Source: a virus. Taken from it: 30,670 bases of DNA. The translations under genes were made by a program, and so were the position numbers. Under the pieces are notes generated by a model. It had not been told where the DNA came from. It was given only the letters and a program-made list of their open reading frames with translations, and did no database searches. Positions within the stretch are counted from its first letter, which is position 1, and each line of letters opens with the position of its first letter. Below are positions 461 to 29,797 of the stretch, in pieces. Location: positions 1 through 30,670 of IMG/VR virus record IMGVR_UViG_3300032288_001914. One strand, given 5' to 3'.

Positions 461-915
461 CGGCCCGGAAACCGAACGAACAGCACCGCCGCGACGGAAC
501 CCTGAACGTCACGCGTCACGTCAAGGGCAAGGGGTCCGACCTCGCGCCGGCCGTGCCCGTGTTGGGGCCGGATTTCATCCTGTGGCCGGCCGATGAGGCG
601 TGGGCGTCGCTGCTCGATGAGGGGGTCGCGTGGCTTGCGCGGACGGATATCCCGAAGGCGTTGATGGTTCGGGATAGTTTGCGGGAACGTCAACGGCTAC
701 TCCCGTTCATCGACGAAGACCCGAACGCCCGGACGCAACTGCGTGCCCTAAACAAGGAGATCGCAAGTCTGTTGACGGATCTGGGTTTCGATCCGGCGTC
801 ACGGTCGCGGCTGGGTTTGGCGGAAGTGCGGGCGCAGTCGAAACTCGAGGAACTGCGGGCGCGGCGTTCGCCGACGTTGTCGGCGGCCGATCAGGTGGTC
901 GTGGTCGATGAGTAA
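457..915 (+). CDS. terS: terminase small subunit (putative)
   Basis: 152 aa, immediately before the large terminase gene and overlapping it by 8 nt. Small terminases recognise the packaging site and load DNA onto the large subunit. The C-terminal half (about residues 60-145) is predicted helical, with the patterns LRERQRLLPFIDEDPNARTQ and ALNKEIASLLTDLGFDP-SRSRLG. These resemble the C-terminal part of P27-type small terminases of actinophages, where an 'LGLTPASRSRLG'-like motif is common. The N-terminal 30 residues are polar and may be disordered. GTG start with a 4-nt overlap of the upstream stop. Identification rests on position plus the C-terminal motif. Confidence 0.8.
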   Translation: MTARKPNEQHRRDGTLNVTRHVKGKGSDLAPAVPVLGPDFILWPADEAWASLLDEGVAWLARTDIPKALMVRDSLRERQRLLPFIDEDPNARTQLRALNKEIASLLTDLGFDPASRSRLGLAEVRAQSKLEELRARRSPTLSAADQVVVVDE

Positions 916-2440
916 ATCGGCGACGGTGAAGGGATGGCCGCCTGCCCTGCTGACGCCAGTGCCAACGACGGACGTCGCCCGCGGTGATGGGGATTTGGCT
1001 ATCGAGTTCGTCGAGGCCCTGTGTGTGCAGGTGAAGGATTCGGTCGGGGGTCGCGCTGGTGAGCCGATGCAGTTGCGTGGGTGGCAGCGGAATCTGATTC
1101 GGGCGATGTATGCCCGCCGTCCTGATGGCCGCTACAGGTCGAAGATGAATCTGGTGATGCTGCCTCGGAAGTCGGGGAAGTCCGCCCTGGCCTCGAGCCT
1201 CGCCCTGTATGACCTGTTCATGGGGCCGAACGGTGGCGAGGTTTATTCGTGCGCGGTCGACAAAGACCAGGCACGGATCGTGTTCGCCACGGCCAAGGCG
1301 ATGCTGGAGCGGTCACCGGATTTGTCGGGTCAGGCGAAGGTTTATCGGGACGCGATCGTGGTTCCGACGACGGGGTCGGTTTATCGGGTGCTGTCGTCGG
1401 ACGCAGTGCGGAAGGAAGGACTGTCGCCGACGGCGGTGCATTACGACGAACTCCACGGGGCACCGACGCGGGAACTGTTCGACGTGATGTCGTTGGCGAT
1501 GGCGGCCCGGATTGATGCGAGGTTCACGGCATGGTCAACGGCGGGCACGAAGGCGGACTCGACCGGGCAGGATTCGATCTGCTACAGCCTGTGGCAGTAC
1601 GGGCGGAAGATCGCGAAACGTGAAGTCGACGATCCGACGTTCTTCATGGCGTGGTGGGGCGCAGCCGAGTCCGCTGACCATCGGGATCCCGAGGTGTGGA
1701 AACGGGCGAACCCCGCGTTCGGTGACCTGCAAGACCCCGAGGACTTCGACTCGGCGATCCGCAGGACACCCGAGGCGGAGTTTCGGACGAAGCGTTTGAA
1801 TACGTGGACGTCGTCGCAGGCGGCATGGCTTCCCGCTGGATCATGGGAAGGACTCGAGCTAGCACCGGCACCGGACCCTGATGAGGACGTCGACGTCATC
1901 CTCGGGTTCGACGGGTCGTTCAGTGGGGACGCGTCGGTCGTGGTCGGGGTCACGGTGGAGGATTCGCCGCGGATCTTCATGGTGCGGGCGTGGGAACGTC
2001 AACCCACGGACCGGGACGACTGGCGGGTCGACATCGGTCAGGTCGAGCAGACCATCATTGAGGCGTGCGGACGGTGGCGCGTGATCGAGGTCGCCTGTGA
2101 CCCGTTCCGGTGGCAGCGGTCCATCGAGGCCCTCGCCGCTGCTGGTGTTCCGGTCATCGAGTACGCGTCGACGTCACCGGCCCGCATGGTTCCGGCGTCC
2201 GCGAAGTTTTACGACGCGGTCACCAGTGGCCGGATCCGGCACGACGGCGACCCTCTCCTGGCACGTCACTTCCAGAACTGCGTCCTGAAAGTCGACCAGA
2301 AGGGTCCGCGGATTGTGAAGGAACATCGCGGCAGCCCGAGGAAGATTGATGCCGCAGTGTCTGCGGTAATGGCGCATGATCGCGCCACAATGGTGCGGGA
2401 ACTGGTGCCCGAGGTGGCGCCCGCTATCTGGGTCGTCTGA
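908..2440 (+). CDS. terL: terminase large subunit (ATPase and nuclease)
   Basis: 510 aa, the usual size for the family. The packaging motor cuts concatemeric DNA and pumps it through the portal. The ATPase half shows an atypical Walker A, PRKSGKS (residues 86-92), and a Walker B, AVHYDE (176-181), with the catalytic acidic pair. The C-terminal RNase H-like nuclease starts near residue 329 (ILGFDGSFSGD, D335 probably metal-binding), with a second acidic motif in VACDPFRW and a third near AVMAHD. ATG start at 908 overlaps the small subunit end. All key residues appear intact, so it should be functional. The best supported call in the window. Confidence 0.97.
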   Translation: MSKSATVKGWPPALLTPVPTTDVARGDGDLAIEFVEALCVQVKDSVGGRAGEPMQLRGWQRNLIRAMYARRPDGRYRSKMNLVMLPRKSGKSALASSLALYDLFMGPNGGEVYSCAVDKDQARIVFATAKAMLERSPDLSGQAKVYRDAIVVPTTGSVYRVLSSDAVRKEGLSPTAVHYDELHGAPTRELFDVMSLAMAARIDARFTAWSTAGTKADSTGQDSICYSLWQYGRKIAKREVDDPTFFMAWWGAAESADHRDPEVWKRANPAFGDLQDPEDFDSAIRRTPEAEFRTKRLNTWTSSQAAWLPAGSWEGLELAPAPDPDEDVDVILGFDGSFSGDASVVVGVTVEDSPRIFMVRAWERQPTDRDDWRVDIGQVEQTIIEACGRWRVIEVACDPFRWQRSIEALAAAGVPVIEYASTSPARMVPASAKFYDAVTSGRIRHDGDPLLARHFQNCVLKVDQKGPRIVKEHRGSPRKIDAAVSAVMAHDRATMVRELVPEVAPAIWVV

Positions 2441-2610: not shown

Positions 2611-3942
2611 ATGCTGCGCAGGTTGACCGAACGTCGGGCGTTGTCGTTTCAGACGGTGTGGGGCGCGGGTGGCGACTGGGTCGGCGGTTCGAGCTTGTCC
2701 GGTGTCCCGATTCACGGCGACAACGCGCTGAGGGTTTCGGCCGTCTACGCGTGCGTCAGGTTGTACGTCGACTGCGTGTCAACCCTGCCCGCTGACGCGT
2801 TCCTGCGGGTCGACGGTGACCGGCGCCCGTACCGACCTAAGCCGGCATGGATTGATGAACCGTCGCCGGGCATCACCCGGTCGGATCACTTCGCCCAGGT
2901 GATGGTCAGTCTGATGATCGACGGGAACTCGTTCACCCACGTCCTGAGGTCGCCGACGACTGGCGAGGTTATCGACCTCACGGTCCTGAATCCGCAGCAT
3001 GTCGAGGTGCGCCGGAACGCGGCCCGCGAAATCGAGTACGTCGTGGGTCATGGGAAGGTCATCATCCCGGCCGAGGACATGATCCACATCACCGAGATGA
3101 CGCTGCCGGGCGAGCTGCGAGGCGTGTCACGGATCGCGCAGAACCGGGAAACCCTCGGTCTGGCGCAGGCGTTGACGGAGTTCGCGGCCCGGTTCTTTGG
3201 TCAGGGGTCGATGGTGCCGGGCGTCATCGAGTGGCCGGGCACGCTCACGAAGGAACAGGCGACCGCGCTGGTCGACACGTTCGAGGCATCGCATCAGGGC
3301 CTGACTCGGTCGCATCGGCCCGCCGTGTTGCAGGGTGGCGCGAAGTTCACGACCACCGGGATCGACCCGGAGTCGTCGCAGTTGAACGCGTCCCGCCGCC
3401 AGTCCGTCGAAGATGTGGCGCGGATCTTCCGTATCCCGCCGCACATGATCGGCATCACCGAAGGCATGACATATTCGAACGTGGAGAACAACGCGATCCA
3501 GTGGGTCCGGTTCAGTGTCGTCCCGATCGTCACGAAGATCGAACAGGCATACAGCCGACTCCTGCCCGGCATCGCGTTCATGCGATTCAACCTGGACTCA
3601 CTGCTGCGCGGTGACACGTCGACCCGGTTCGCGGCCTACTCCACGGCCCTACAGTCAGGGTTCATGTCCGTGAATGAGGTCCGGCGCCTCGAGGACCTGC
3701 GGACGGTCGACGCGGGCGATGTGCTGCGGGTGCCGTTGGCGAACGTGGACCTGAACGCCGCGAACCTCGTCGAGACGGAGAAGAAGGTCACGATGGCCCG
3801 GAATCTGGTGCTCGTGGGCTATGACCCGGCCGAGGTTCTGCGTGCCCTGGGACTGCCTGATATCGAGCACACGGGCGTCCCGTCGTCCCAGTTGCAGCCC
3901 ATCGTTCAGATCAACCCGAATGATCCGGGGTCGGTCTACTAA
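2611..3942 (+). CDS. portal protein (HK97 family)
   Basis: 443 aa. The dodecameric portal forms the DNA channel at one capsid vertex and docks the terminase and connector. The N-terminal region has the family hallmark ALRVSAVYACVRLYVDCVSTLP (about residues 35-58, 'V-aCv-l-a-tva-lP'). The middle contains MIDGNSFTHVLR, MIHI and LRGVSRIAQNRE, and the clip/stem region contains VEDVARIFRIPPHMIGI plus YSNVENNAIQWVRFSV (about 265-310). These are characteristic of Phage_portal (HK97 gp3-like) proteins, and the length is normal. AAGGAG at 2599-2604 is the ribosome-binding site. It ends in a TAATG overlap with the next gene. Confidence 0.95.
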   Translation: MLRRLTERRALSFQTVWGAGGDWVGGSSLSGVPIHGDNALRVSAVYACVRLYVDCVSTLPADAFLRVDGDRRPYRPKPAWIDEPSPGITRSDHFAQVMVSLMIDGNSFTHVLRSPTTGEVIDLTVLNPQHVEVRRNAAREIEYVVGHGKVIIPAEDMIHITEMTLPGELRGVSRIAQNRETLGLAQALTEFAARFFGQGSMVPGVIEWPGTLTKEQATALVDTFEASHQGLTRSHRPAVLQGGAKFTTTGIDPESSQLNASRRQSVEDVARIFRIPPHMIGITEGMTYSNVENNAIQWVRFSVVPIVTKIEQAYSRLLPGIAFMRFNLDSLLRGDTSTRFAAYSTALQSGFMSVNEVRRLEDLRTVDAGDVLRVPLANVDLNAANLVETEKKVTMARNLVLVGYDPAEVLRALGLPDIEHTGVPSSQLQPIVQINPNDPGSVY

Positions 3943-4664
3943 TGCCGTTTACGTCGACCGCATACAACCTGACCGCGGGGTCGGCCACGGTTGTCGTCCC
4001 CCCGGACAACCAGCCGATGGCCGTCATCCTGCGCAACAATCAACCGGTCGCGGGCGCGGAAGGGTTCAGCCGTCGCGGGTACACGTTCGGGATCGCGCAG
4101 TCGTTCGACGTGCCCGCGTCGGGCACTGCATCGTTCGCGATCACGACCGGCACGCACGGTGCCCAGTTTCAGTATTACTCGATCATCACGGAGACGACAT
4201 CCGTGGATGCGTATCTGGTCGAGGGTGCAACGGTCGGCACGGCCGCAGGCACTGTTACGGCCTACAACCTAGACCGGACGTCGTCGCGTGTGCCGACGTC
4301 GGTGGTGGGTTCAGCCACATCGGTCACGGGCGGGACGATCGTGTCGGCGGAGTATTTGACGACCACGAAGCAAGCCGGGGAAACGTTCTCGTCGTTCAAG
4401 ATTTTGACGCTAGCGGCGTCGTCGGTTTATGCGATGCAGTTTGTCAATCAACAGAACCAGTCGACCACGGTGCACTTTCAACTGGGTTGGGCGGAGCAGT
4501 TCAACGGCGGGCACGATATTTACATCGGCGGCGCGGTCGGGTCTGCGTTCCGGCTGCCACCGGAAACAACGATGCAGTTGACGCTGCTGCCGTTGACGAC
4601 GTTGACGGCGACCGCGTCGCAGCCGTGCAACCTAGGTGTGTTCGTTGAGAGGGCGTGGGACTGA
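3942..4664 (+). CDS. unknown, probable virion protein
   Basis: 240 aa, not recognised. It is rich in Thr, Ser, Val, Gly and Ala, with alternating hydrophobic patterns typical of beta-sandwich folds (for example SATVVVPPDNQPMAVIL and TLLPLTTLTATAS). There are no long helices, no signal peptide and only one cysteine. It starts on the portal stop (TAATG) and ends on the protease start (TGATG), so it is translationally coupled to two head genes. Position and composition suggest a capsid decoration or fibre-like head protein, possibly the one that carries the glycans implied by the downstream glycosyltransferase; this is inference. Confidence 0.65.
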   Translation: MPFTSTAYNLTAGSATVVVPPDNQPMAVILRNNQPVAGAEGFSRRGYTFGIAQSFDVPASGTASFAITTGTHGAQFQYYSIITETTSVDAYLVEGATVGTAAGTVTAYNLDRTSSRVPTSVVGSATSVTGGTIVSAEYLTTTKQAGETFSSFKILTLAASSVYAMQFVNQQNQSTTVHFQLGWAEQFNGGHDIYIGGAVGSAFRLPPETTMQLTLLPLTTLTATASQPCNLGVFVERAWD

Positions 4665-6508
4665 TGCCGTACTTCATTACCGATCAGGCGGACGGCTGCG
4701 ACGGGTGGGCGACCGTGAAGGACGACGGCGAGGTCATCGGCTGCCATGCGGACAAGCAGGGCGCGATCGACCAGATGGTCGCAGTGTCGTTGGCTGAGGA
4801 TATGGAGCCGGGCGGGGAGCGTGCCCTACCCGATAACTATCGGCCCGCGTTGGCGGCCGACGTTCCTGATGGTCGAGCGTGCGGCAACTGCTTGTTCTAT
4901 GACGAGTCGAACGTGCAAGGCGATCGTGCCTGGTGTCAACGGTGGAGTGATTACGTCTCGGGCGCCTATTACTGCAACGCGTGGCAGGCCGACGAAGATG
5001 ACGACCGGTCGGGTAACCGGGACGCGGGTGACCCGCTCATCATCGTGTCCGACTTCGATAACACCCTGCGCATGTCGGGCGGGGATCCCAGTGTGGGCGT
5101 CATCGAGCACCTGAAGGCGGTCAACGCTCAGGGCGTGCTGGTGGTAATTGTGACGGCCCGGAACGAACGCGACCGGGACACGGTCACGGCGTGGCTGGTC
5201 GATCATGGGGTTCCGTATCACGAGGTCGTGATGAACCCCGGCGCGGGCGACCCGACCGCGTTCAAGGTGTATGTCGCGCAGGATTTGTTAGATGACTTCC
5301 AAATCGTTGAGTGGATCGACGACAACGGGGACACCAGGACCGCCTTGACGCAGCTCGGGATCCACGTCAGCCCGCCGTCGAACTATCGGTCGGCCGTGGC
5401 GGCTGGTCAGGTGCGCGACGTCGAGGCCCGTGCGGTCGATGTCCCCGGTTATGTGCGGCGGGCCGCTGCGCGGGGTTTGCAACTGCGGGCCGATGGTCGG
5501 GGTGGGGCTGGGTTGACGGATCAGACGATCCGTGAGGCCCGCGCCATGGCGAACGGCGAAATGACCGACGACAAGGTCATCAGGGCGGCGGCGTGGGCTG
5601 CGCGGCATCGTGTCGACCTCGAGGCACCAGCAAACAGTGACCCGTCGCATCCACGGTGGCCCGGTCCCGGTGCCGTCGCGCATTACCTGTGGGGCATTGA
5701 CCCGTTGAATCCGAACCCGGCCCGTAGTTGGCTGGACCGTCAGGCCGCGATTATCAGTGAACAGCAGCAGGAGGAAGGACGACTCATGCCGGGCAAGATG
5801 GAGATCCGCGCATTTACTGAGGCGATTGAGGTGCGTGCGGGTGGTGACGGGATGTCGTTCACCGGTTATGCGGCGGTGTTTGATTCCCCGTCGGAGCCGC
5901 TGCCGTTCATCGAGCGGATCGCGCCCGGCGCGTTCGCGTCCACCATCCGGTCTAAGAACAACGTTTATCTCCTGCGGAATCACGACTTCGGCTCCCCTCT
6001 CGCACGGACCCGGAACAAGTCCATGACCCTCACGGAGGACGGTCATGGTTTGCGGGTGGAGGCGAAACTGCCCGACACGACGGACGGCCGCGACCTCGCG
6101 GTGCTGCTGCGCGACGGGATCGTGGACTCAATGTCGTTCGGGTTCAGTGTCCCGAAGAACGGCGACGTGTGGTCTGAGGATGGGATGCAGCGCACTCTGC
6201 GGTCCGTCCGGCTGCATGAGGTCAGCATCGTGACGATGCCCGCCTACCGTGCGACCACGGCCTCGGTCCGGTCGATTGACCGCCTCGCCGACGTGACTGG
6301 TTTGGATCCCGACGCGATCGGGTCCGCCCTTGACGCCCTCGAAGCGGGCCAGACGTTGTCGAATGACCAGGCGGATCTGATCGGGTCGATCGTGGGCCGG
6401 TTGAAGCCTGCGGACGTCGCAGCGGCACCTGAGGCTGCGCCCGTGCCTGACCCCGCCGTTAGTCTGGATCTGCTACGGAAACGGCTGGAACTGGCCGCGA
6501 AACTGTAG
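4664..6508 (+). CDS. multidomain capsid maturation protease with HAD-phosphatase domain
   Basis: 614 aa from the ATG at 4664, which overlaps the upstream stop (TGATG); a GTG at 4655 would add three residues. Domains in order: (1) residues 1-45, a small module (ADGCDGWATVKDDGEVIGCH) seen at the front of some actinophage proteases; (2) 70-108, a Cys4 module (C73, C76, C91, C104), possibly Fe-S or zinc binding; (3) about 124-235, a HAD-type phosphatase with DFDNT (D130, D132, T134), VTAR (T164), K201 and IDDN (D219, D220); (4) about 262-362, a helical module with the SDPSHPRWPGPGAVAHYLWG pattern; (5) about 378-545, an HK97-type prohead protease with RNHD (H440), MSFGF (S491) and LHEVS. It would cut scaffold domains during capsid maturation. 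Family proteases are usually 150-250 aa; the added domains are unusual. Confidence 0.9.
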   Translation: MPYFITDQADGCDGWATVKDDGEVIGCHADKQGAIDQMVAVSLAEDMEPGGERALPDNYRPALAADVPDGRACGNCLFYDESNVQGDRAWCQRWSDYVSGAYYCNAWQADEDDDRSGNRDAGDPLIIVSDFDNTLRMSGGDPSVGVIEHLKAVNAQGVLVVIVTARNERDRDTVTAWLVDHGVPYHEVVMNPGAGDPTAFKVYVAQDLLDDFQIVEWIDDNGDTRTALTQLGIHVSPPSNYRSAVAAGQVRDVEARAVDVPGYVRRAAARGLQLRADGRGGAGLTDQTIREARAMANGEMTDDKVIRAAAWAARHRVDLEAPANSDPSHPRWPGPGAVAHYLWGIDPLNPNPARSWLDRQAAIISEQQQEEGRLMPGKMEIRAFTEAIEVRAGGDGMSFTGYAAVFDSPSEPLPFIERIAPGAFASTIRSKNNVYLLRNHDFGSPLARTRNKSMTLTEDGHGLRVEAKLPDTTDGRDLAVLLRDGIVDSMSFGFSVPKNGDVWSEDGMQRTLRSVRLHEVSIVTMPAYRATTASVRSIDRLADVTGLDPDAIGSALDALEAGQTLSNDQADLIGSIVGRLKPADVAAAPEAAPVPDPAVSLDLLRKRLELAAKL

Positions 6509-6525
6509 CCGCCCGTGCGGAGCCG

Positions 6526-6577: not shown

Positions 6578-7783
6578 ATGCAGGAATACATGAAGCGTTT
6601 GGTGGAGAAGCGCCAGAACACTTGGTCGCAGACCACTGAACTCCTTGACCGTGCGGCCGCTGAGAAGCGCGACCTGACCGCCGAGGAGACCGAAACCTAC
6701 AACCGCGCCATGGCGGACCTCGACGCGACGAAGTCCCAGATCGACGATCTGGTGGCGGCGGAGCGGCGTGAGGTTGAGATCGCCGAGTCGATGCGCGGCC
6801 TCGAGCACGTTGTCCGTCCCGCTGGTGAGGCTCGCAGCGGACAGTCTGAGCGGGACATCCTGCGCGGACTGCTCAAGGGCGAGGTCCGTTCGCACATGTT
6901 CGACGCTGAGCGTCGCGACATCACGACCGGCACCAGCAACGCACCGGTGCCGCAGACGTTCGCCGGTGCCGTCATCGACCAGGCACGCCTCGTCGGCCCG
7001 ATGCTCGACCCGAACGTGGTCACGGTCCTGAACACCACGGGCGGCGAGAACTTCGTGTTCCCGACCCTGTCCACCTGGTCGACCGCGAACAAGTTCGCCG
7101 AGGGCACCGCCATCGACGAGTCGGATCCCGGTTTCGGAAAGATGACCCTGTCGGCCTACAAGTACGCGTTCCTCGTGCAGGTGTCCCGTGAGATGGTCGA
7201 GGATTCCTCGGTCGACATCATGGGTTTCATCGCGACGCAGGCAGGCAACGCGATCGGCTACGCCGTGAACAGCAAGTTGACGCTGGGCACCGGCACGGTC
7301 GAGCCGACCGGCATCGTGGTCGCGGCTGGCACCGGGGTGACCGGTTCCACTGGTGTCACGGGCGCGTTCACGGGCGACAACCTCATCAGCCTGCTGTATT
7401 CCGTGGATGGTGCGGCCCGTCGTCTGCCCGGTTTCGGGTTCATGACGTCGGCGACGAACATCGCGGCGATCCGTAGCCTGAAGGCGTCGACCTCGGGTGA
7501 ATATTTGTTCACACCGACATTGGACGCAGCGACCCCAGATAGGCTGCTCGGGTATCCGTTGATCGAAAATCCCCATGTGGCCGGAGCAGGCACCGGGGTC
7601 AAGTCGGTCCTGTGCGGATACTTCCCGGCGTACTACGTCCGCCAGGTCGGCGGGATCCGCATCGACTCGTCCGCGGACTACGCGTTCGCGAACGACCTCG
7701 TCACGATGCGGGCCACCATCCGCGTCGACGGCAACCTGTCGCAGCAGACGCACGTCAAGGCGTTCCGCGGCGGCACTGCCTGA
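6578..7783 (+). CDS. major capsid protein (HK97 fold)
   Basis: 401 aa from the ATG at 6578, preceded by a strong GGAAGGA ribosome-binding site 7 nt upstream; an earlier in-frame GTG is ignored. The first ~85 residues are charged and helical (LVEKRQNTWSQTTELLDRAA, TAEETETYNRAMADLDATKS). This fits the coiled-coil delta (scaffold) domain that the upstream protease would remove. The remainder shows the HK97-fold pattern of Phage_capsid proteins: VPQTFAGAVID, MTLSAYKYAFLVQVSREMVEDS, FIATQAGNAIGYAVNSKLTLG, LLGYPLIENPHV and VLCGYF. It is flanked by hairpins on both sides, consistent with a very abundant message. Confidence 0.95.
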   Translation: MQEYMKRLVEKRQNTWSQTTELLDRAAAEKRDLTAEETETYNRAMADLDATKSQIDDLVAAERREVEIAESMRGLEHVVRPAGEARSGQSERDILRGLLKGEVRSHMFDAERRDITTGTSNAPVPQTFAGAVIDQARLVGPMLDPNVVTVLNTTGGENFVFPTLSTWSTANKFAEGTAIDESDPGFGKMTLSAYKYAFLVQVSREMVEDSSVDIMGFIATQAGNAIGYAVNSKLTLGTGTVEPTGIVVAAGTGVTGSTGVTGAFTGDNLISLLYSVDGAARRLPGFGFMTSATNIAAIRSLKASTSGEYLFTPTLDAATPDRLLGYPLIENPHVAGAGTGVKSVLCGYFPAYYVRQVGGIRIDSSADYAFANDLVTMRATIRVDGNLSQQTHVKAFRGGTA

Positions 7784-7793
7784 CAATGATCTC

Positions 7794-7832
7794 GGTGGGG
7801 GCGTCGTGTTTGGCGCAGGCGACGCCCCCACC
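7794..7832 (+). terminator. strong stem-loop after the capsid gene
   Basis: A perfect 13-bp GC-rich stem, GGTGGGGGCGTCG at 7794-7806 and CGACGCCCCCACC at 7820-7832, with a 13-nt loop, starting 11 nt after the capsid stop. No U-run follows, so it may be a partial terminator or a 3' stabiliser. Either would make capsid protein far more abundant than the downstream glycosyltransferase. Confidence 0.8.
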
Positions 7833-7877
7833 GGGCTACAACCCCACATAACTCCACAGCCCCGAAAGGTCCCCGCG

Positions 7878-9161
7878 ATGCCCCGTGCTGGTAATCCTTC
7901 ACAACGCACCTCACGACCTCGACCCCGCCCTAGCGCAGCTGCTCATCCGATCGGGCCACGCCCAACCGATGACCCCAGGTATCGAATCCTCATCACCTCC
8001 AACGCGCCGTGGACGGCCACCGGGTACGGGGTCCAGACCGCGCAGTTCGCAGTCCGCGCCCGATCCGACGGTCACCAGATCGCGATCGCCGCGAACTACG
8101 GCCTCGAAGGCTGCAACAGTGAGTGGGCAGGGTTCCCTGTCTTTCCCCGAGGATTCGACCAATACTCGAACGACGTAATCCCGGCGCAGATGCACGAATG
8201 GTGGACAACGTGCACCGATGAGGACGTCAAGCCTCTCCTGATGACCCTGTATGACTGCTGGGTCTACAAGGGGCCGCAGTGGTCCGACTGGCCCATCGCA
8301 TCATGGGTGCCCATCGACCACGCCCCCTGCCCGCCGGATGTGTTGAACTGGTGCAAGCGCCCGAACGTCGCCCCCATCGCGATGTCGCAGTTCGGGAAGC
8401 AGATGTTGGAGAACGTCGGCGTCGAAGCGGTTTATGTCCCTCACGCCCTCGACGGGCAGGTTTTCAAGCCGACGCCGTCACTGACGACGGACACGGGTGA
8501 GGTCGTGACGGGTCGCCAGTTGATGGGCGTCCCCGAGGATGCTCACGTCACGATGATCGCGGGCGCTAACAAGGGCATTTACCCGTCGCGGAAGAACTTC
8601 GCCGGGATGATTCTGGCGTGGCGGATCATGGCCGCGAACAACCCGGACGCTTGGCTGTATTTGCACACGGAACGGCATGGCGCGATGGGTGGGATCAATA
8701 TGGATCACCTGTTGGCGGCGTGTGATGTGCCGATGGATCGGGTCCGGTTCGTTGACCAGTACGCCTACAGGAAACCCCTGTCGTCGGAGTTTCTCGCGGC
8801 GTGCTACTCCGGGGCGGACGTGTTCATGCACTGCTCGAAGGGGGAAGGGTTCGGGGTGCAGGCGATCGAGGCGCAAGCCTGCGGCACACCGATCATCACC
8901 AGCGACTTCACGGCGATGCCGGAACTGGTCGGCGACGGCTGGGTGGTGGATGGGCAACCTGATTGGGATCCGATGCAGCAGTCGTGGTGGATTGATCCGG
9001 CGATCCCCTCGATGGTTGAGGCGTTGAAACAGTCGGCGGCCCGTGGCGTGAATCAGGTGTCGGATAAGGCGGCCGAGTTCGGGGCACGGTTCGACGCTGA
9101 CCGGGTTTTCGTTGAGCATTGGCGGCCCGCGTTGGCGCAGATCGACCGGATGCTCCCGTGA
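7878..9161 (+). CDS. glycosyltransferase (GT-B, group 1/GT4-like)
   Basis: 427 aa from the ATG at 7878 with GAAAGG at 7864-7869; longer in-frame extensions run through the hairpin and into the capsid gene and are rejected. The first ~35 residues are Pro/Arg-rich. A Rossmann-like N-terminal domain begins at YRILITSNAPWTATGYG. The C-terminal domain carries the nucleotide-sugar signature CSKGEGFGVQAIEAQACGTP (E-x7-E) followed by TSDFTAMPELVGDG, typical of GT4 retaining enzymes. Expected activity: transfer of a sugar from an NDP-sugar. The location between capsid and connector genes and the 4-nt overlap with a methyltransferase suggest glycosylation of a virion protein rather than of DNA. The acceptor and sugar are unknown. 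Confidence 0.9.
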   Translation: MPRAGNPSQRTSRPRPRPSAAAHPIGPRPTDDPRYRILITSNAPWTATGYGVQTAQFAVRARSDGHQIAIAANYGLEGCNSEWAGFPVFPRGFDQYSNDVIPAQMHEWWTTCTDEDVKPLLMTLYDCWVYKGPQWSDWPIASWVPIDHAPCPPDVLNWCKRPNVAPIAMSQFGKQMLENVGVEAVYVPHALDGQVFKPTPSLTTDTGEVVTGRQLMGVPEDAHVTMIAGANKGIYPSRKNFAGMILAWRIMAANNPDAWLYLHTERHGAMGGINMDHLLAACDVPMDRVRFVDQYAYRKPLSSEFLAACYSGADVFMHCSKGEGFGVQAIEAQACGTPIITSDFTAMPELVGDGWVVDGQPDWDPMQQSWWIDPAIPSMVEALKQSAARGVNQVSDKAAEFGARFDADRVFVEHWRPALAQIDRMLP

Positions 9162-9754
9162 ACCCGCTAGAGGCCGTAGGACGCCCGTGGATCGACGAAC
9201 GCCTGCCGCTGCTAGGTGGACGTGCGGAAGCGTTCTCGGCCCTCTGGGACGCCCTCACGGGCCTTGGGCGGCCCGTCTGCATTGTGGAGACCGGCGCGAC
9301 CCGGCAACCGGATAACTGGGCTGGTGATGGGCAGTCGACTCGGGTTTGGGATGCGCTGGTCACGGCCGTCGGTGGGGAGGTGTGGACGTGCGACATCGAC
9401 CTCGAGGCGGTCGAGGTGACCCGGTCTCTGGTGTCGGCGCGGGTGCAGGTGCATCACGGTGACAGTCTCGCCTACCTGCCTCGCCTGACCGAGTATGTCG
9501 TCAACAAGTTTGGGCAGGCCGACCTGCTGTACCTGGACTCGTATGACATCGACTGGGGAAACCCTCGCCCGTCGATGGATCATCACCGGGCCGAGCTTGA
9601 TGCGGCGTGGGGAATGTTGGGGCCGGGGTCGATCGTCGCGGTCGACGATAACCGGGACGACTGTGGGAAGGGTATGGCCGTCGGCATGGAACTGTTGCGA
9701 CGCCGGTGGCAGCCGATCATCCACACTTATGTAAGGGCATGGCGACACCCTTAG
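9158..9754 (+). CDS. class I SAM-dependent methyltransferase-like protein
   Basis: 198 aa, GTG start overlapping the glycosyltransferase stop (GTGA). Residues about 42-60 (VCIVETGATR) resemble motif I of class I methyltransferases. EVWTCDIDLEAVEVTRSLV follows (strand beta2 ending in acidic D-x-D), then VHHGDSLAYLP, DLLYLDSYDIDW and GMLGPGSIVAVDDN, which match the later Rossmann motifs. Motif I is ETGATR rather than the usual E-x-G-x-G-x-G, so the assignment is to the fold, and activity is less certain. Coupled translation with the glycosyltransferase suggests O-methylation of the added sugar, as known for some bacterial surface glycans. Confidence 0.75.
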   Translation: MNPLEAVGRPWIDERLPLLGGRAEAFSALWDALTGLGRPVCIVETGATRQPDNWAGDGQSTRVWDALVTAVGGEVWTCDIDLEAVEVTRSLVSARVQVHHGDSLAYLPRLTEYVVNKFGQADLLYLDSYDIDWGNPRPSMDHHRAELDAAWGMLGPGSIVAVDDNRDDCGKGMAVGMELLRRRWQPIIHTYVRAWRHP

Positions 9755-23482: not shown

Positions 23483-23664
23483 CCAATCCCGGCCCCGGCG
23501 AGTTCAGGTGCGGGGATTGCATCACGGTGAAACATCACCGCGAACTGGTCGACGTCGCCATCGACACGATCCTCGCGAAGTTGCTCGACTACGCCACGAC
23601 GTCGAGCTACGACGGCCGTGAGGCGATCCACGCGGCCGTCGCATGGGTGCGTGACCCGTGGTAG
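23479..23664 (+). CDS. small protein with CxxC motif
   Basis: 61 aa, GTG start. CGDC at residues 11-14 with two following histidines (VKHHRE) could bind metal. Then come helices (LVDVAIDTILAKLLDYAT, GREAIHAAVAWVRD). No family is recognised. It overlaps the WhiB-like gene by 7 nt. Confidence 0.6.
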   Translation: MTNPGPGEFRCGDCITVKHHRELVDVAIDTILAKLLDYATTSSYDGREAIHAAVAWVRDPW

Positions 23665-24059
23665 CGCCCGACTCCATCGGATCCTCAAACCCCGCCCCCT
23701 GTTCCCAATGTGGCGCGTGGATGCCCCGACCCCGCACCTGGCATTACGGGAAACCCACCTGCCGGGGCTGCCTCACCCGCGTTGTCGACGCGACCGTGCT
23801 CGACCGTGAATGGATGAAAGACGCGAACTGCGCCGGGACCCTGATCGACTTTTTCCCCCACATTGACCACAAGCAGGACATCAGCCTGCAAAGAACCATC
23901 TGCCGGTCCTGCCAAGTGCAAACTGAATGTCTGACCTACGCGATAAGAACACGCGAACCCCACGGCATCTGGGGTGGCATGACCCCGATGGAACGCCACA
24001 TGTTCGCCCGAACAAACCGCCTACCAACATTCACCCCGGAAGGAACCCAGCCCGAATGA
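23658..24059 (+). CDS. WhiB-family regulator with extra N-terminal zinc ribbon
   Basis: 133 aa, GTG start at 23658. Residues 15-38 form a Cys4 ribbon (CSQC...CRGC). From residue 52 a WhiB domain follows: C58 in DANCAGT, CRSC (C82, C85), C91 in TECLTYA, and the signature turn GIWGGMTPMER (103-113). The four cysteines should bind a [4Fe-4S] cluster, and WhiB proteins usually act by binding the main sigma factor. Phage WhiB-like proteins are known to alter host transcription. The N-terminal zinc-ribbon fusion makes it longer than a typical ~85-100-aa family member. The basic C-terminal tail is short. Confidence 0.9.
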   Translation: MVAPDSIGSSNPAPCSQCGAWMPRPRTWHYGKPTCRGCLTRVVDATVLDREWMKDANCAGTLIDFFPHIDHKQDISLQRTICRSCQVQTECLTYAIRTREPHGIWGGMTPMERHMFARTNRLPTFTPEGTQPE

Positions 24060-26385: not shown

Positions 26386-26540
26386 ACCTAGACGCCGTCG
26401 AACATGTCCTGTATGTGATCGCCGCGTCGTTCGCGACGGGAATGCTGGTCGCCCTGCTGCTCGGTGGCCTCAAATATTGGAACGACCGCATCACAGCCTC
26501 AATACAGAAATGGCGGGAACGTGACAATCACCCTGAATGA
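26382..26540 (+). CDS. small one-helix membrane protein
   Basis: 52 aa, GTG start in the stop of the previous gene (GTGA) and overlapping the nuclease start by 20 nt. One transmembrane helix spans about residues 8-30 (HVLYVIAASFATGMLVALLL), then a charged tail (RITASIQKWRERDNHPE). No family is recognised. The topology resembles the two membrane peptides at 21.1-21.45 kb. Confidence 0.6.
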   Translation: MNLDAVEHVLYVIAASFATGMLVALLLGGLKYWNDRITASIQKWRERDNHPE

Positions 26541-27210
26541 CCTGCGCGACGTCGTCAGGCAAGCGGACGCGACGAAACCGCGATCCACGCAGACCGCGAT
26601 CGGCCCCAGTGACGCAGGGGTCGAATGCGCTCGACGCCTCGGGCACAAGATCGCCGGAACCCCGCCCGTGAACACCTCGGGGGATCCGTGGGCCGCGATC
26701 GTCGGCACCGCCGTCCACGCATGGCTCGACGCCGCGTTCACGGGCGACAGGTGGATCACCGACCGGCGCGTCACCCTGCCCGGCTACATGTCCGGAACCC
26801 TCGACCTGTACGACACCGAAACCAACACCGTCATCGACCACAAAGTCGTCGGCGCCACCAGCCTGAAACGTGCCCGCGACCACGGGCCGTCCAAGCAGTA
26901 CGTCGCCCAGGTGAACCTGTATGCCGCAGCCCTCGAAGTCGAAGGCGTCCCCGTCGACCACGTCGCCATCGCCTACTGGTCAAGATCCGGCAACCTCCGC
27001 GACGCGCACCTGTGGACCGGCCCATACGACCGAGACATCGTGAACGCGACTCTGGCGCGTCTCGACGCGATCCGCACCATCGTCGACGCCGACGGAGTAG
27101 CGTCCCTCCCCACAGCAGACAGTCATTGCCTGTTCTGCCCCCACTACCTGCCAGCCGCAACCGTGCTCACGGAAGCGTGCCCAGGACACAACCCAACCCA
27201 ACCCAAGTGA
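26521..27210 (+). CDS. Cas4/RecB-like PD-(D/E)XK exonuclease with probable Fe-S cluster
   Basis: 229 aa from the GTG at 26521. Motifs: VGTAVHAWLDAAF (H66), SGTLDLYD (D95), VIDHKVV (D106, K108) and QYVAQVNLYAAAL (Q130, Y134) form the complete RecB-type nuclease core. Four cysteines (C36; C203 and C206 in CLFC; C220) have the spacing that binds [4Fe-4S] in Cas4 and AddB. Expected function: 5'-3' resection of DNA ends for phage recombination. It is followed by an OB-fold-like ssDNA protein and the primase-helicase, the usual recombination/replication grouping. No CRISPR genes are near, so it is not a CRISPR adaptation Cas4. Confidence 0.85.
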   Translation: MTITLNDLRDVVRQADATKPRSTQTAIGPSDAGVECARRLGHKIAGTPPVNTSGDPWAAIVGTAVHAWLDAAFTGDRWITDRRVTLPGYMSGTLDLYDTETNTVIDHKVVGATSLKRARDHGPSKQYVAQVNLYAAALEVEGVPVDHVAIAYWSRSGNLRDAHLWTGPYDRDIVNATLARLDAIRTIVDADGVASLPTADSHCLFCPHYLPAATVLTEACPGHNPTQPK

Positions 27211-27647: not shown

Positions 27648-27703
27648 CACGGCCCCGCCTAGACCTCATCCATCGGTGAGGGGAGAAGCTAGGCGGGGCC
27701 GTG
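27648..27703 (+). terminator. long hairpin between OB-fold and primase genes
   Basis: CACGGCCCCGCCTAG (27648-27662) pairs perfectly with CTAGGCGGGGCCGTG (27689-27703), a 15-bp stem. The 26-nt loop can form a second small stem, CCTCA/TGAGG (27664-27668 and 27677-27681). There is no U-run. It begins 13 nt after the OB-fold gene stop, so it could terminate or attenuate transcription before the primase gene or stabilise the upstream message. Confidence 0.8.
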
Positions 27704-27742
27704 CCAGCCCCAGCCCACTGCGCCAGCCCGAAGGGCAACACC

Positions 27743-29797
27743 GTGACACAAACCATCCAGTCACGCTACGACTGGTTCCTCGAACAACTCCGCGCCCACG
27801 GCAGCCGCGTCATCACCCGCGGCCCATCCACCGCCACCGCCCAATGCCCCGCGCACCGTGACCGCACCCCAAGCCTCGCCGTGTCCACCGGCGACACCGC
27901 GGTCGTCCTCACCTGCCACGGTGGCTGCAACCCGCAGGATGTCATGGCGGCCCTGTCGCTCACCTACGGTGACCTGTGGCCCGACGACGGTGTCACCCGC
28001 ATCGAAACCCCAGCCGTGTGGATGGCCTACGCCGAGAAGGTCCGCGACCTGAACGAACGCGCCAAACACCGCGACACGTCCAAGCCTGACCTACCGGAGA
28101 ACACGACACGGGAACACGTCACCGCCTACTGGTACGTCAACGAAGCGGACGAACTGGTCGGCGTGAAAAACCGGTACAACCTCATCAACCGGGACACCGG
28201 CGAGATCGTCGGCAAGACATTCACCCTCCACGCCGTCGTCGACGGGGAACAACGACCCACCCTCGAAGGCCACCACCTGCCCCTGTATCGCCTCGTCGAC
28301 ACGATCAGGGCCGTCGAAGTTCGCGCCCCCATCTACCTCGTCGAAGGCGAGAAAGATGCCGACAACCTCGCCGCCCACGGCCTCGCCGCCACCAGCCTCC
28401 CCGGAGGCGCCAACGACCCACTGCGACCCGACGTCCTAGCCCCACTGGCCGGTGCTGACGTTCACGTCATCGTCGACAACGACCCACCCGGACACAAACT
28501 CGCCCACCGGCTCAACAACGCCCTAACGTCGATCGGCTGCCGCACCTGGTACTGGACCGCCGCCACAGGCAAAGACGCGACCGACCACCTCGACGCCGGA
28601 CTCACCATCCACGACCTCATCCCATACCGGCTAGAAACCGGCACCAGCGACGACCAGCCCGACCCCGAGGTCAACACCGTGACCGAACCCGACACCGACC
28701 TCGAGCTGCCCCCCGTCCCCGACTCCACATGGCTCCCCCGACTCCTATCCGACCTCATCGTCGAAGCCGGCGCCGCCCCCGAACCCACCATCCTCGCCCG
28801 CACCGACGGGAAACTCGGCCTCTACCCCGGCCGCGTCAACGGACTCCTAGGTGAAGCCGAATCAGGCAAAACATGGATCGCCCTCGCCGCCTGCCGTGAA
28901 GTCATCAAGGCAGGCGGGACCATCACCTACATCGACTTCGAGGACTCCATCACCGGCATCGCCCACCGCCTCGCCACCCTCGACATCACCGGCGACGACC
29001 TCAAGCGCGTCCAATACATCAACCCCGACACCGCGATTCACGAACTCGAACGCCAACTCATGCTCAACGCGATCCACGCCCACGCCCCCGCCCTGATCGT
29101 CGCCGACGGCGTCAACGCCGGCATGACCCTCCTAGGCCTCGACATCAACTCAAACAACGACGCCACCACATTCTTCACCCGCATCCTCAAACCCCTCGCC
29201 ACCAACGGCGCCGCCGTCCTCGCCATCGACCACCTACCCAAATCCAAAGAAAACCGTGGCAAAGGCGCGATCGGTGCCCAGGCGAAACGCGCCATGATGA
29301 CCGGCGCCTGCTACACCGTGAAAGTCGAGGACCACCCAGCCCCCGGCCAAACCGGCACCCTCAGGCTGTACGTCGACAAAGACCGGCCCGGCCGGATCCG
29401 TGAACAAGCCCGAGGACGCAAAGCCCTATGGGGAATCGCCATCATCACGTCCCACACCCCGAAGGTCGCGATCCGCATCGAGCCACCCAGCCCCGACGGA
29501 CAAGACGACGACGACGAAACCCCCAACCGTGAACCCCGCCGACGACCCATCACGTTAGAGGCCCTCATGGGCCACATCGCCGAAATCGCCCACGCCAACA
29601 CCACACCCGACGGCCAACACCAACCCACCGTCGCCCGCCACATCAACACCAGACTCCGCGAAACCGGAATCTCAGCCAGCAACGACACCATCCTCAACGC
29701 CACCGACCAACTCATCCGCGACGGATACCTCGACCAGCGGAAACGGTGGATCCGCGCCTACGAAACCCCCGACACCGAACCCCGACCACGCCGATGA
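27743..29797 (+). CDS. DNA primase-helicase (Toprim plus RecA-like ATPase)
   Basis: 684 aa from the GTG at 27743, where GAAGGG lies 8 nt upstream; an earlier GTG at 27701 lies inside the hairpin and is less likely. Domains: zinc finger (C35, H38, C58, C62; CPAH and CHGGC), Toprim primase core (IYLVEGEKD with E201; IVDNDPPG with D245 and D247), and a RecA/RepA-type ATPase with Walker A GEAESGKT (370-377), Walker B LIVADG (451-456) and AIDHLPKS. The last ~95 residues look like a winged helix. It would prime and unwind DNA for host polymerase; no phage polymerase is present. It overlaps the next ORF by 4 nt. Confidence 0.95.
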   Translation: MTQTIQSRYDWFLEQLRAHGSRVITRGPSTATAQCPAHRDRTPSLAVSTGDTAVVLTCHGGCNPQDVMAALSLTYGDLWPDDGVTRIETPAVWMAYAEKVRDLNERAKHRDTSKPDLPENTTREHVTAYWYVNEADELVGVKNRYNLINRDTGEIVGKTFTLHAVVDGEQRPTLEGHHLPLYRLVDTIRAVEVRAPIYLVEGEKDADNLAAHGLAATSLPGGANDPLRPDVLAPLAGADVHVIVDNDPPGHKLAHRLNNALTSIGCRTWYWTAATGKDATDHLDAGLTIHDLIPYRLETGTSDDQPDPEVNTVTEPDTDLELPPVPDSTWLPRLLSDLIVEAGAAPEPTILARTDGKLGLYPGRVNGLLGEAESGKTWIALAACREVIKAGGTITYIDFEDSITGIAHRLATLDITGDDLKRVQYINPDTAIHELERQLMLNAIHAHAPALIVADGVNAGMTLLGLDINSNNDATTFFTRILKPLATNGAAVLAIDHLPKSKENRGKGAIGAQAKRAMMTGACYTVKVEDHPAPGQTGTLRLYVDKDRPGRIREQARGRKALWGIAIITSHTPKVAIRIEPPSPDGQDDDDETPNREPRRRPITLEALMGHIAEIAHANTTPDGQHQPTVARHINTRLRETGISASNDTILNATDQLIRDGYLDQRKRWIRAYETPDTEPRPRR

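Follow-up and report, generated by a model that had tools for sequence, protein, structure and literature searches.

A Pnkp-like HAD domain within the prohead protease polyprotein of a phage and its relatives

Why should the protease that matures a phage capsid carry a phosphatase-like domain in the same chain? The question is raised by the IMG/VR virus record IMGVR_UViG_3300032288_001914, a complete record of 30,670 bases (the window). One of its open reading frames (ORFs) encodes a 614-residue polyprotein in which a haloacid dehalogenase (HAD) domain precedes an S78 prohead protease. We favour the reading, at a probability of roughly 0.5, that the HAD domain is a working, capless 3'-phosphatase of the Pnkp type, carried as exchangeable cargo on the capsid protease, freed inside the head and acting on 3'-ends. 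The features of the polyprotein are listed below. Counts given with the HAD motifs are from 72 distinct HAD sequences, consisting of the window's own and others, including one Pnkp-like solo protein of L154 (relatives are denoted by L numbers).

4664..6508, plus strand: 614-residue polyprotein, arranged as Cys module, HAD domain, helical domain and S78 prohead protease
4664..4999, plus strand: N-terminal module, residues 1-112, from alignments of relatives
4880..4975, plus strand: four-cysteine stretch C73-C104 within the N-terminal module, from an alignment of relatives
5024..5392, plus strand: HAD domain, residues 121-243, Pnkp 3'-phosphatase-like, from profiles and predicted structure
5051..5065, plus strand: HAD motif I, D130-F-D132-N-T134, nucleophile and acid/base; D130, D132 and T134 each in 72/72
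5153..5161, plus strand: HAD motif II, T164-A-R166; position 164 is T in 69 and S in 3, R166 in 72/72
5264..5266, plus strand: HAD motif III, K201, facing K258 of T4 Pnkp; K in 72/72
5318..5323, plus strand: HAD motif IV, D219-D220 (after I218); position 219 is D in 49 and E in 23, position 220 is N in 60 and D in 12 (n=72)
5435..5749, plus strand: helical domain, residues ~258-362, with the pattern RGL..G..G.GL, separating the insert slot from the protease
5825..6277, plus strand: S78 prohead protease domain, residues 388-538, from PF04586, the T4 gp21 fold and alignment

The HAD domain and the polyprotein around it

The original prediction had placed a HAD domain at 5000-5370, marked by DFDNT, VTAR, a lysine and IDDN. 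All of these landmarks are present (D130-F-D132-N-T134, T164-A-R166, K201 and I218-D219-D220), and the position was correct to within about eight codons. It had further been proposed that the segment should fold as a HAD and that the motif residues should be kept in homologues, and both expectations were borne out. Modelled alone from a 52-row alignment, the domain shows a clear HAD fold with a predicted local distance difference test (pLDDT) score of 95.3 and a predicted template-modelling (pTM) score of 0.89, and the catalytic set is retained in all 72 distinct sequences, many of which share just 25-35% identity with the window. The order of the motifs and the predicted Rossmann-like fold place the domain, as far as a model can, in the HAD superfamily. 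All six reading frames of the window together give a single match to the four-motif pattern, which was composed after the domain had been seen, and of 20000 shuffled versions of the polyprotein 2 matched; chance would not be expected to produce the pattern.

Substitution rates were compared by the Nei-Gojobori method for one pair, the window and L003, whose proteins are 90% identical. The ratio of nonsynonymous to synonymous rates (dN/dS) is 0.093 for the HAD domain, 0.059 for the protease, 0.056 for the helical domain, 0.054 for the Cys module and 0.327 for the linker 236-257, ratios that are rough because dS is at least 0.8 outside the Cys module. These values indicate purifying selection on the HAD domain. 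The domain could instead be a catalytically idle spacer or filler, as its slot accepts unrelated inserts or none (see below), but with the catalytic set intact in 72/72 sequences at such low identities, and with purifying selection acting, this explanation is very improbable.

The other parts of the chain are also well defined. PF04586 matches residues 388-538 with an E value of 5.5e-42 (144.2 bits, cut-off 21). H440, S491 and E519, which correspond to the conserved His, Ser and Glu of HK97 gp4, each occur in at least 90% of rows in a 50-row alignment; E519 is absent from the conserved list of a 49-row alignment. An AlphaFold2 model of the full chain (49-row alignment) gives the HAD domain a pLDDT of ~88-97 and the stretches 105-119 and 244-254 less than 50, and with a pTM of 0.34 the domains are not placed relative to one another. 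In a Foldseek search with this model the top PDB match was the T4 Pnkp 3'-phosphatase (E 9.7e-6), and the T4 gp21 capsid protease was matched with an E value of 5.4e-4. An alternative GTG start at 4655 would lengthen the polyprotein by 3 residues.

The N-terminal module has the motif MPYFIT..C.GWA..K.DGEVIGCH..K followed by C73-x2-C76-x14-C91-x12-C104. Its relatives are encoded in 584 IMG/VR stretches, and every one of 13 aligned rows, the window being counted, has all four cysteines. The spacing in the Cys modules, C-x2-C...C...C-x2-W (window 4880-4975; L007 5872-7149), recalls that of high-potential iron-sulphur proteins. This identity was not adopted, the only matches to PF01355 being below the cut-off (E 0.064 in L087 and 0.12 in L007).

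A gene-finding artefact or a contig chimera was ruled out. An identical stretch of 562 codons is present in L002 and a 90% identical protein in L003, and divergent fusions are common, so the polyprotein is genuine. As had been claimed, the HAD domain and an intact-looking maturation protease share one chain, and this arrangement recurs in many contigs. The claim that the HAD domain sits between the Cys4 module and the protease was right as to order, but a further domain (~258-362) separates it from the protease.

Likeness to Pnkp and the candidate substrate

When the HAD domain alone was compared with known structures (VIA-align), the first ranks were taken by bacterial Pnkp1 (4xru, Z 18.9, root mean square deviation 1.5 over 122 residues) and the 3'-phosphatase of T4 Pnkp (5uj0, Z 18.8, 1.6 over 119). 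These were followed by Nir2 LNS2 (16.3) and lipin (13.7), the remaining listed HADs being at or below 13.5; mammalian PNKP scores only 10.9. The family sequence profile matches Pnkp1 with an E value of 6.6e-12, T4 Pnkp with 1.3e-9 and Nir2 with 8.1e-7, and PHROG 415 'polynucleotide kinase' covers the HAD domain with an E value of 2.2e-13. Residues D130, D132, R166, K201, D219 and D220 align with T4 Pnkp D165, D167, R213, K258, D277 and D278.

The original prediction had left the substrate as a nucleotide or a protein. With polynucleotide 3'-phosphatases as the closest structures this choice is narrowed, and we infer from the model that polynucleotide 3'-ends would be the substrate. A HAD of only 120 residues that has no cap is suited to large substrates, which agrees with the likeness to Pnkp.

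Several observations weigh against the reading that we favour. The window HAD lies below every Pfam HAD cut-off (PF24694, 20.4 vs 27.7; PF08282, 17.0 vs 20.9). The segment of T4 Pnkp that follows motif I and holds R176, a residue important in that enzyme, is a gap in 51 of 52 rows, the exception being the Pnkp-like row of L154. Additionally, the arginine of the M-R pair in Pnkp1 and the solo phage Pnkp is replaced by N, K or S (M-Q in T4). Because the R176 segment is missing and the M-R position changed, the substrate may differ from that of Pnkp. HAD_PNKP (PF25109, cut-off 27.6) is passed by the relatives L168 (36.1) and L130 (31.4), is below threshold in L019, L087, L103, L106, L154 and L158, and is not listed for the window, L007, L116, L120, L122, L138, L141 and L143. 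The acid phosphatase family IIIB (PF03767, cut-off 27) is passed by more of the scanned relatives, namely nine (L087, L116, L120, L141, L154, L158, L168, L130 and L103). In a tree of 121 columns, the 72 head HADs and 10 solo phage Pnkp rows (9 named phage records chosen from BLAST hits and one from L154) fall across one branch (100/100), from which the head HADs appear to be a sister group to the solo phage Pnkp. A scan of 17 proteins of the window, a subset of its ORFs, revealed neither a ligase nor a kinase. Finally, the HAD is a stand-alone gene beside the protease gene in L007-L009, L106 and L129.

On the head side of the tree the carriers are intermixed, S78 needing 11 changes, in a tree that held a wrong fragment for the solo row L179. 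Two HADs are encoded in L154, at 3986-4381 and 6075-6509, a solo one that falls on the head side of the tree and another that is Pnkp-like.

A different substrate is implied if the domain is a sugar-phosphate phosphatase for capsid decoration, working with the products of the glycosyltransferase and methyltransferase genes downstream of the capsid gene. PHROG 1238 'phosphoheptose isomerase' does cover the HAD (E 3.9e-11), and a glycosyltransferase match (two-sequence profile) is found in 20/23 HAD-bearing S78 loci whose downstream sequence extends for 2.6 kb or more. The match is also found in 24/29 loci without HAD, however, so that a linkage specific to HAD loci was rejected, and heptose bisphosphatase structures reach a Z of at most 11.2 against the HAD, compared with 18.9 for Pnkp1. 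We regard this explanation as scarcely credible.

Carriers, the exchangeable slot and a proposed route into the head

Two scans of IMG/VR were made for HAD relatives, each reaching its ceiling of 600 stretches and covering the best 80 of 203 and the best 80 of 277. The queries were drawn from head proteins, so the shares given here are biased to head proteins, but the patterns consisted of HAD motifs only. Many loci are near copies. In the first scan a profile confirmed the HAD ORF in 80/80 loci, to which carrier labels were assigned by hand. HAD and S78 protease share one ORF in 54/80, and in 6/80 the contig stops within a Cys-HAD ORF. In 9/80 the HAD is on a coiled-coil ORF in the scaffold position, in 4/80 it forms part of a portal-HAD-helical-MuF fusion, in 1/80 (L138) it lies ahead of an XkdF-type protease, and the other 6/80 are L101 and L123 (both cut, with a HAD like that of L106), L106, L129, L154 and L168. 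The second scan, which used a different first row, fetched 72 new loci. S78 is in the same ORF in 61, the remainder being 6 that are cut, 4 with a HAD gene adjoining the protease gene and 1 solo HAD on a short contig. Of these 72 contigs 15 had already been seen, and among the other 57 S78 is in the same ORF in 50. Of two separate scans of host-genome contigs, the first gave no locus and the second six, one of them with a HAD (L169).

The less common labels are to be read as follows. For the portal-MuF fusion L158 was scanned, while L151, L159 and L161 are near copies by sequence, and the group holds two distinct HAD sequences. Four of the 9 coiled-coil carriers were scanned (L116, L120, L141 and L143), while the contigs L099 and L113 break off ahead of the coiled coil. 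The label 'scaffold' refers to position and look; the next ORF matched capsid families in L156 and L116 but not in L166, and no scaffold family was matched by the coiled-coil HAD carriers tested. L156 has the order portal (PHROG 21), S49-type head protease (PHROG 53, PF01343), HAD with coiled coil, and capsid (PHROG 267). In L106 and L129 a separate Cys-HAD gene lies between the protease and capsid genes. L168 encodes, at 3325-4998 behind a portal-like gene, a Cys-HAD-helical protein whose C-terminal 259 residues are not S78 and matched nothing clear; an ADP-ribosyltransferase identity for them was unsupported.

No HAD-protease fusion was seen in isolated phages among the tblastn matches listed for four HAD-bearing queries (11/11, and the best 25 of 45, 25 of 69 and 25 of 30). 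These were mostly polynucleotide kinase/phosphatase, with a few hypothetical proteins, ATPases, HAD hydrolases or unannotated entries. The exceptions were phiPsal1, with the Cys module only, and a spring-phage hypothetical protein with no head gene annotated nearby. HAD-protease fusions appear to be in public databases already. At least five BFVD/UniProt entries named 'prohead protease', of 436-763 residues and from uncultured Caudovirales phages, match the HAD structurally (A0A6J5NAI8, A0A6J5S5M9, A0A6J5MQJ8, A0A6J7WPK9 and A0A6J5R419); in contrast with the present description, they carry the protease name alone.

The place of the HAD in the protease chain is an exchangeable slot. In Pontimonas phage phiPsal1, the nearest in the annotated collection, and in contig L006 the Cys module is followed directly by the helical domain and the slot is empty. 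L005 has a different, DUF5824-like domain there (24.4 bits, cut-off 25), and the same module scores 31 in L019. In L039 the slot is occupied by a TUDOR-like domain; PF11160 matches of this kind lie in L039 105-1871 and L173 3730-5682, the latter with two matched stretches. Among 80 loci found via the Cys module the HAD is present in 2 (counting L019, which has both modules, under HAD) and the DUF5824-like module in 38; the other 40 lack both. HAD and DUF5824-like modules are found on either side of the helical domain. The DUF5824-like module (DQI.GSD...AVYRRG.GAYS.SHRPG) is seen in L005 1342-3216, L013, L015, L034, L083 and others, and it may be a second mobile, cargo-like domain. The chain had also been considered unusually long for its family. 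The 68 complete Cys-module-plus-S78 ORFs without HAD measure 445-676 residues (median 561) from stop to stop, and many of them hold a different insert. Length by itself is therefore unremarkable.

S78 proteases are built into the procapsid. If the HAD rides in the protease's N-terminal extension as cargo that can be exchanged, each copy of the protease would bring one phosphatase inside. After assembly the protease would cut the flexible linkers (~105-119 and ~244-254) and free the HAD in the capsid interior, where it could remove 3'-phosphates from nucleic-acid ends on the genome during packaging. Alternatively, copies that leave with the DNA might act on the ends of DNA or RNA once inside the next host cell. 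Because the HAD group is on several proteins expected in the procapsid, the carrier varies while the likely place stays the procapsid interior, and the carriers are expected to share that location. The earlier proposal of a phosphatase acting inside the procapsid thereby receives indirect support. Release from the protease chain would not be essential everywhere, since the HAD is a separate gene in some lineages. Where it lies outside the protease ORF (L007-L009, L106, L129 and L168), the HAD retains at least the first part of the Cys module, which leads us to guess that this module is the procapsid address.

The carriers bear on two other explanations. The phosphatase might act solely while the head is being built, on a head protein or the ends of the packaged DNA, and be lost with the protease fragments before the virion is mature. 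Carriers such as head proteases and scaffold are usually processed or expelled, and the S78 protease, the XkdF-type protease and the coiled-coil ORF of L156, with its S49-type protease and capsid neighbours, are of this kind. Relatives manage without the HAD, however (78/80 Cys-module ORFs), which shows that assembly itself is independent of it, and portal-MuF fusions stay as lasting parts of the head; a role confined to assembly is unlikely. The phosphatase might also be injected with the DNA and, like the effectors of polyvalent proteins, target host metabolism or a nucleotide or signal used in host defence. The fusion of the HAD group to portal-MuF favours this, as according to PMC5512222 injected effectors, a number of which act on nucleotides, are carried by MuF/portal fusions. 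The missing Pnkp segment, the changed M-R position and the nine relatives that pass PF03767 would allow another substrate, but the closest folds are polynucleotide phosphatases, and we consider an effector of this type improbable too. PADLOC found nothing relevant in four proteins, a result of little weight because it covers defence systems and not counter-defence.

We return to the proposed Pnkp-like phosphatase delivered by head proteins. In a wider form, which is possible but doubtful, the capsid proteases and other internal procapsid proteins of many uncultured phages would be a general cargo loader, and a mobile Pnkp-like phosphatase, released by the maturation protease and ejected with the genome, would heal the 3'-phosphate ends left by host nucleases before phage expression. 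The recurrence of the fusion suggests that phages load a phosphatase into the growing capsid. If this is true, the head protease is a delivery vehicle as well as scissors, many environmental phages carry an enzyme for nucleic-acid ends in the head, and capsid maturation is linked to early defence evasion or genome repair. The set of fusions (54/80 and 50/57 contigs in the two scans) would then be ready for reading further cargo domains.

Genome context and comparison with known systems

The S78 protease ORF is in the expected place between the portal and major capsid genes. A 240-residue ORF separates the portal gene from the polyprotein ORF, and the HK97-type capsid gene is downstream of the latter.

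908..2440, plus strand: terminase large subunit
2611..3942, plus strand: portal protein
6578..7783, plus strand: HK97-type major capsid protein (the scan began one codon ahead of the ATG)

A glycosyltransferase ORF (7575-9161; PF00534, PF13692) and a methyltransferase ORF (9119-9754; PF13578) lie behind the capsid gene, as such genes do in phiPsal1, and a glycosyltransferase match is present in 44/52 S78 loci that have enough downstream sequence. Elsewhere the window encodes a Toprim/RecA-like replication protein (27701-29797) and a PD-(D/E)XK-like nuclease (26464-27210) with a Pfam score below the cut-off. The window phage probably infects actinobacteria, as it has a gene for a WhiB-like transcription factor (23658-24056, PF02467 E 4.3e-17) and such a gene serves as a criterion for an actinobacterial host in a passage of PMC6802176.

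Searches of an open-licence library listed no paper that shows a HAD-protease fusion in its title or in the opening of its abstract. The nearest relatives of the domain itself are T4 Pnkp (PseT) and bacterial Pnkp1 (PF25109, PHROG 415/505), with which it shares the fold, DxDxT, S/T-x-R, the K258 equivalent and an acidic motif IV. Unlike these, the head HAD is without a kinase domain and the R176 segment, lies inside a head protein and is on a separate branch of the tree. Compared with Pnkp1, head HADs have mostly M-N or M-K for M-R, and mostly D/E-N for D-D.

MuF polymorphic toxins are reportedly another case of a head protein with an exchangeable enzyme domain. The HAD too is found in portal-MuF fusions, but its commonest carrier among the loci seen is the protease. 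The established precedent is that of polyvalent phage proteins. As described by Iyer et al. (2017; PMC5512222), these are multidomain chains with an assemblin-like peptidase that is always C-terminal and is presumed to process them during virion assembly. The window protein likewise has several enzyme domains in one chain and its peptidase at the C-terminus. The MuF/portal fusions of that class, with RNase (PBECR), 2H phosphoesterase, RelA/SpoT, InPase and PRTase domains (PMC5512222), parallel the portal-MuF fusions of the HAD; the words 'phosphatase' and 'haloacid' are absent from the main text of that paper. In contrast with the polyvalent proteins described there, the chain in the window belongs to the S78 head protease of the phage itself. 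With the HK97-type S78 protease (PHROG 80, T4 gp21 fold) it shares the domain, the conserved residues and the gene order terminase-portal-protease-capsid, and it differs from the usual form in having a long N-terminal extension of exchangeable domains, of which the HAD is one.

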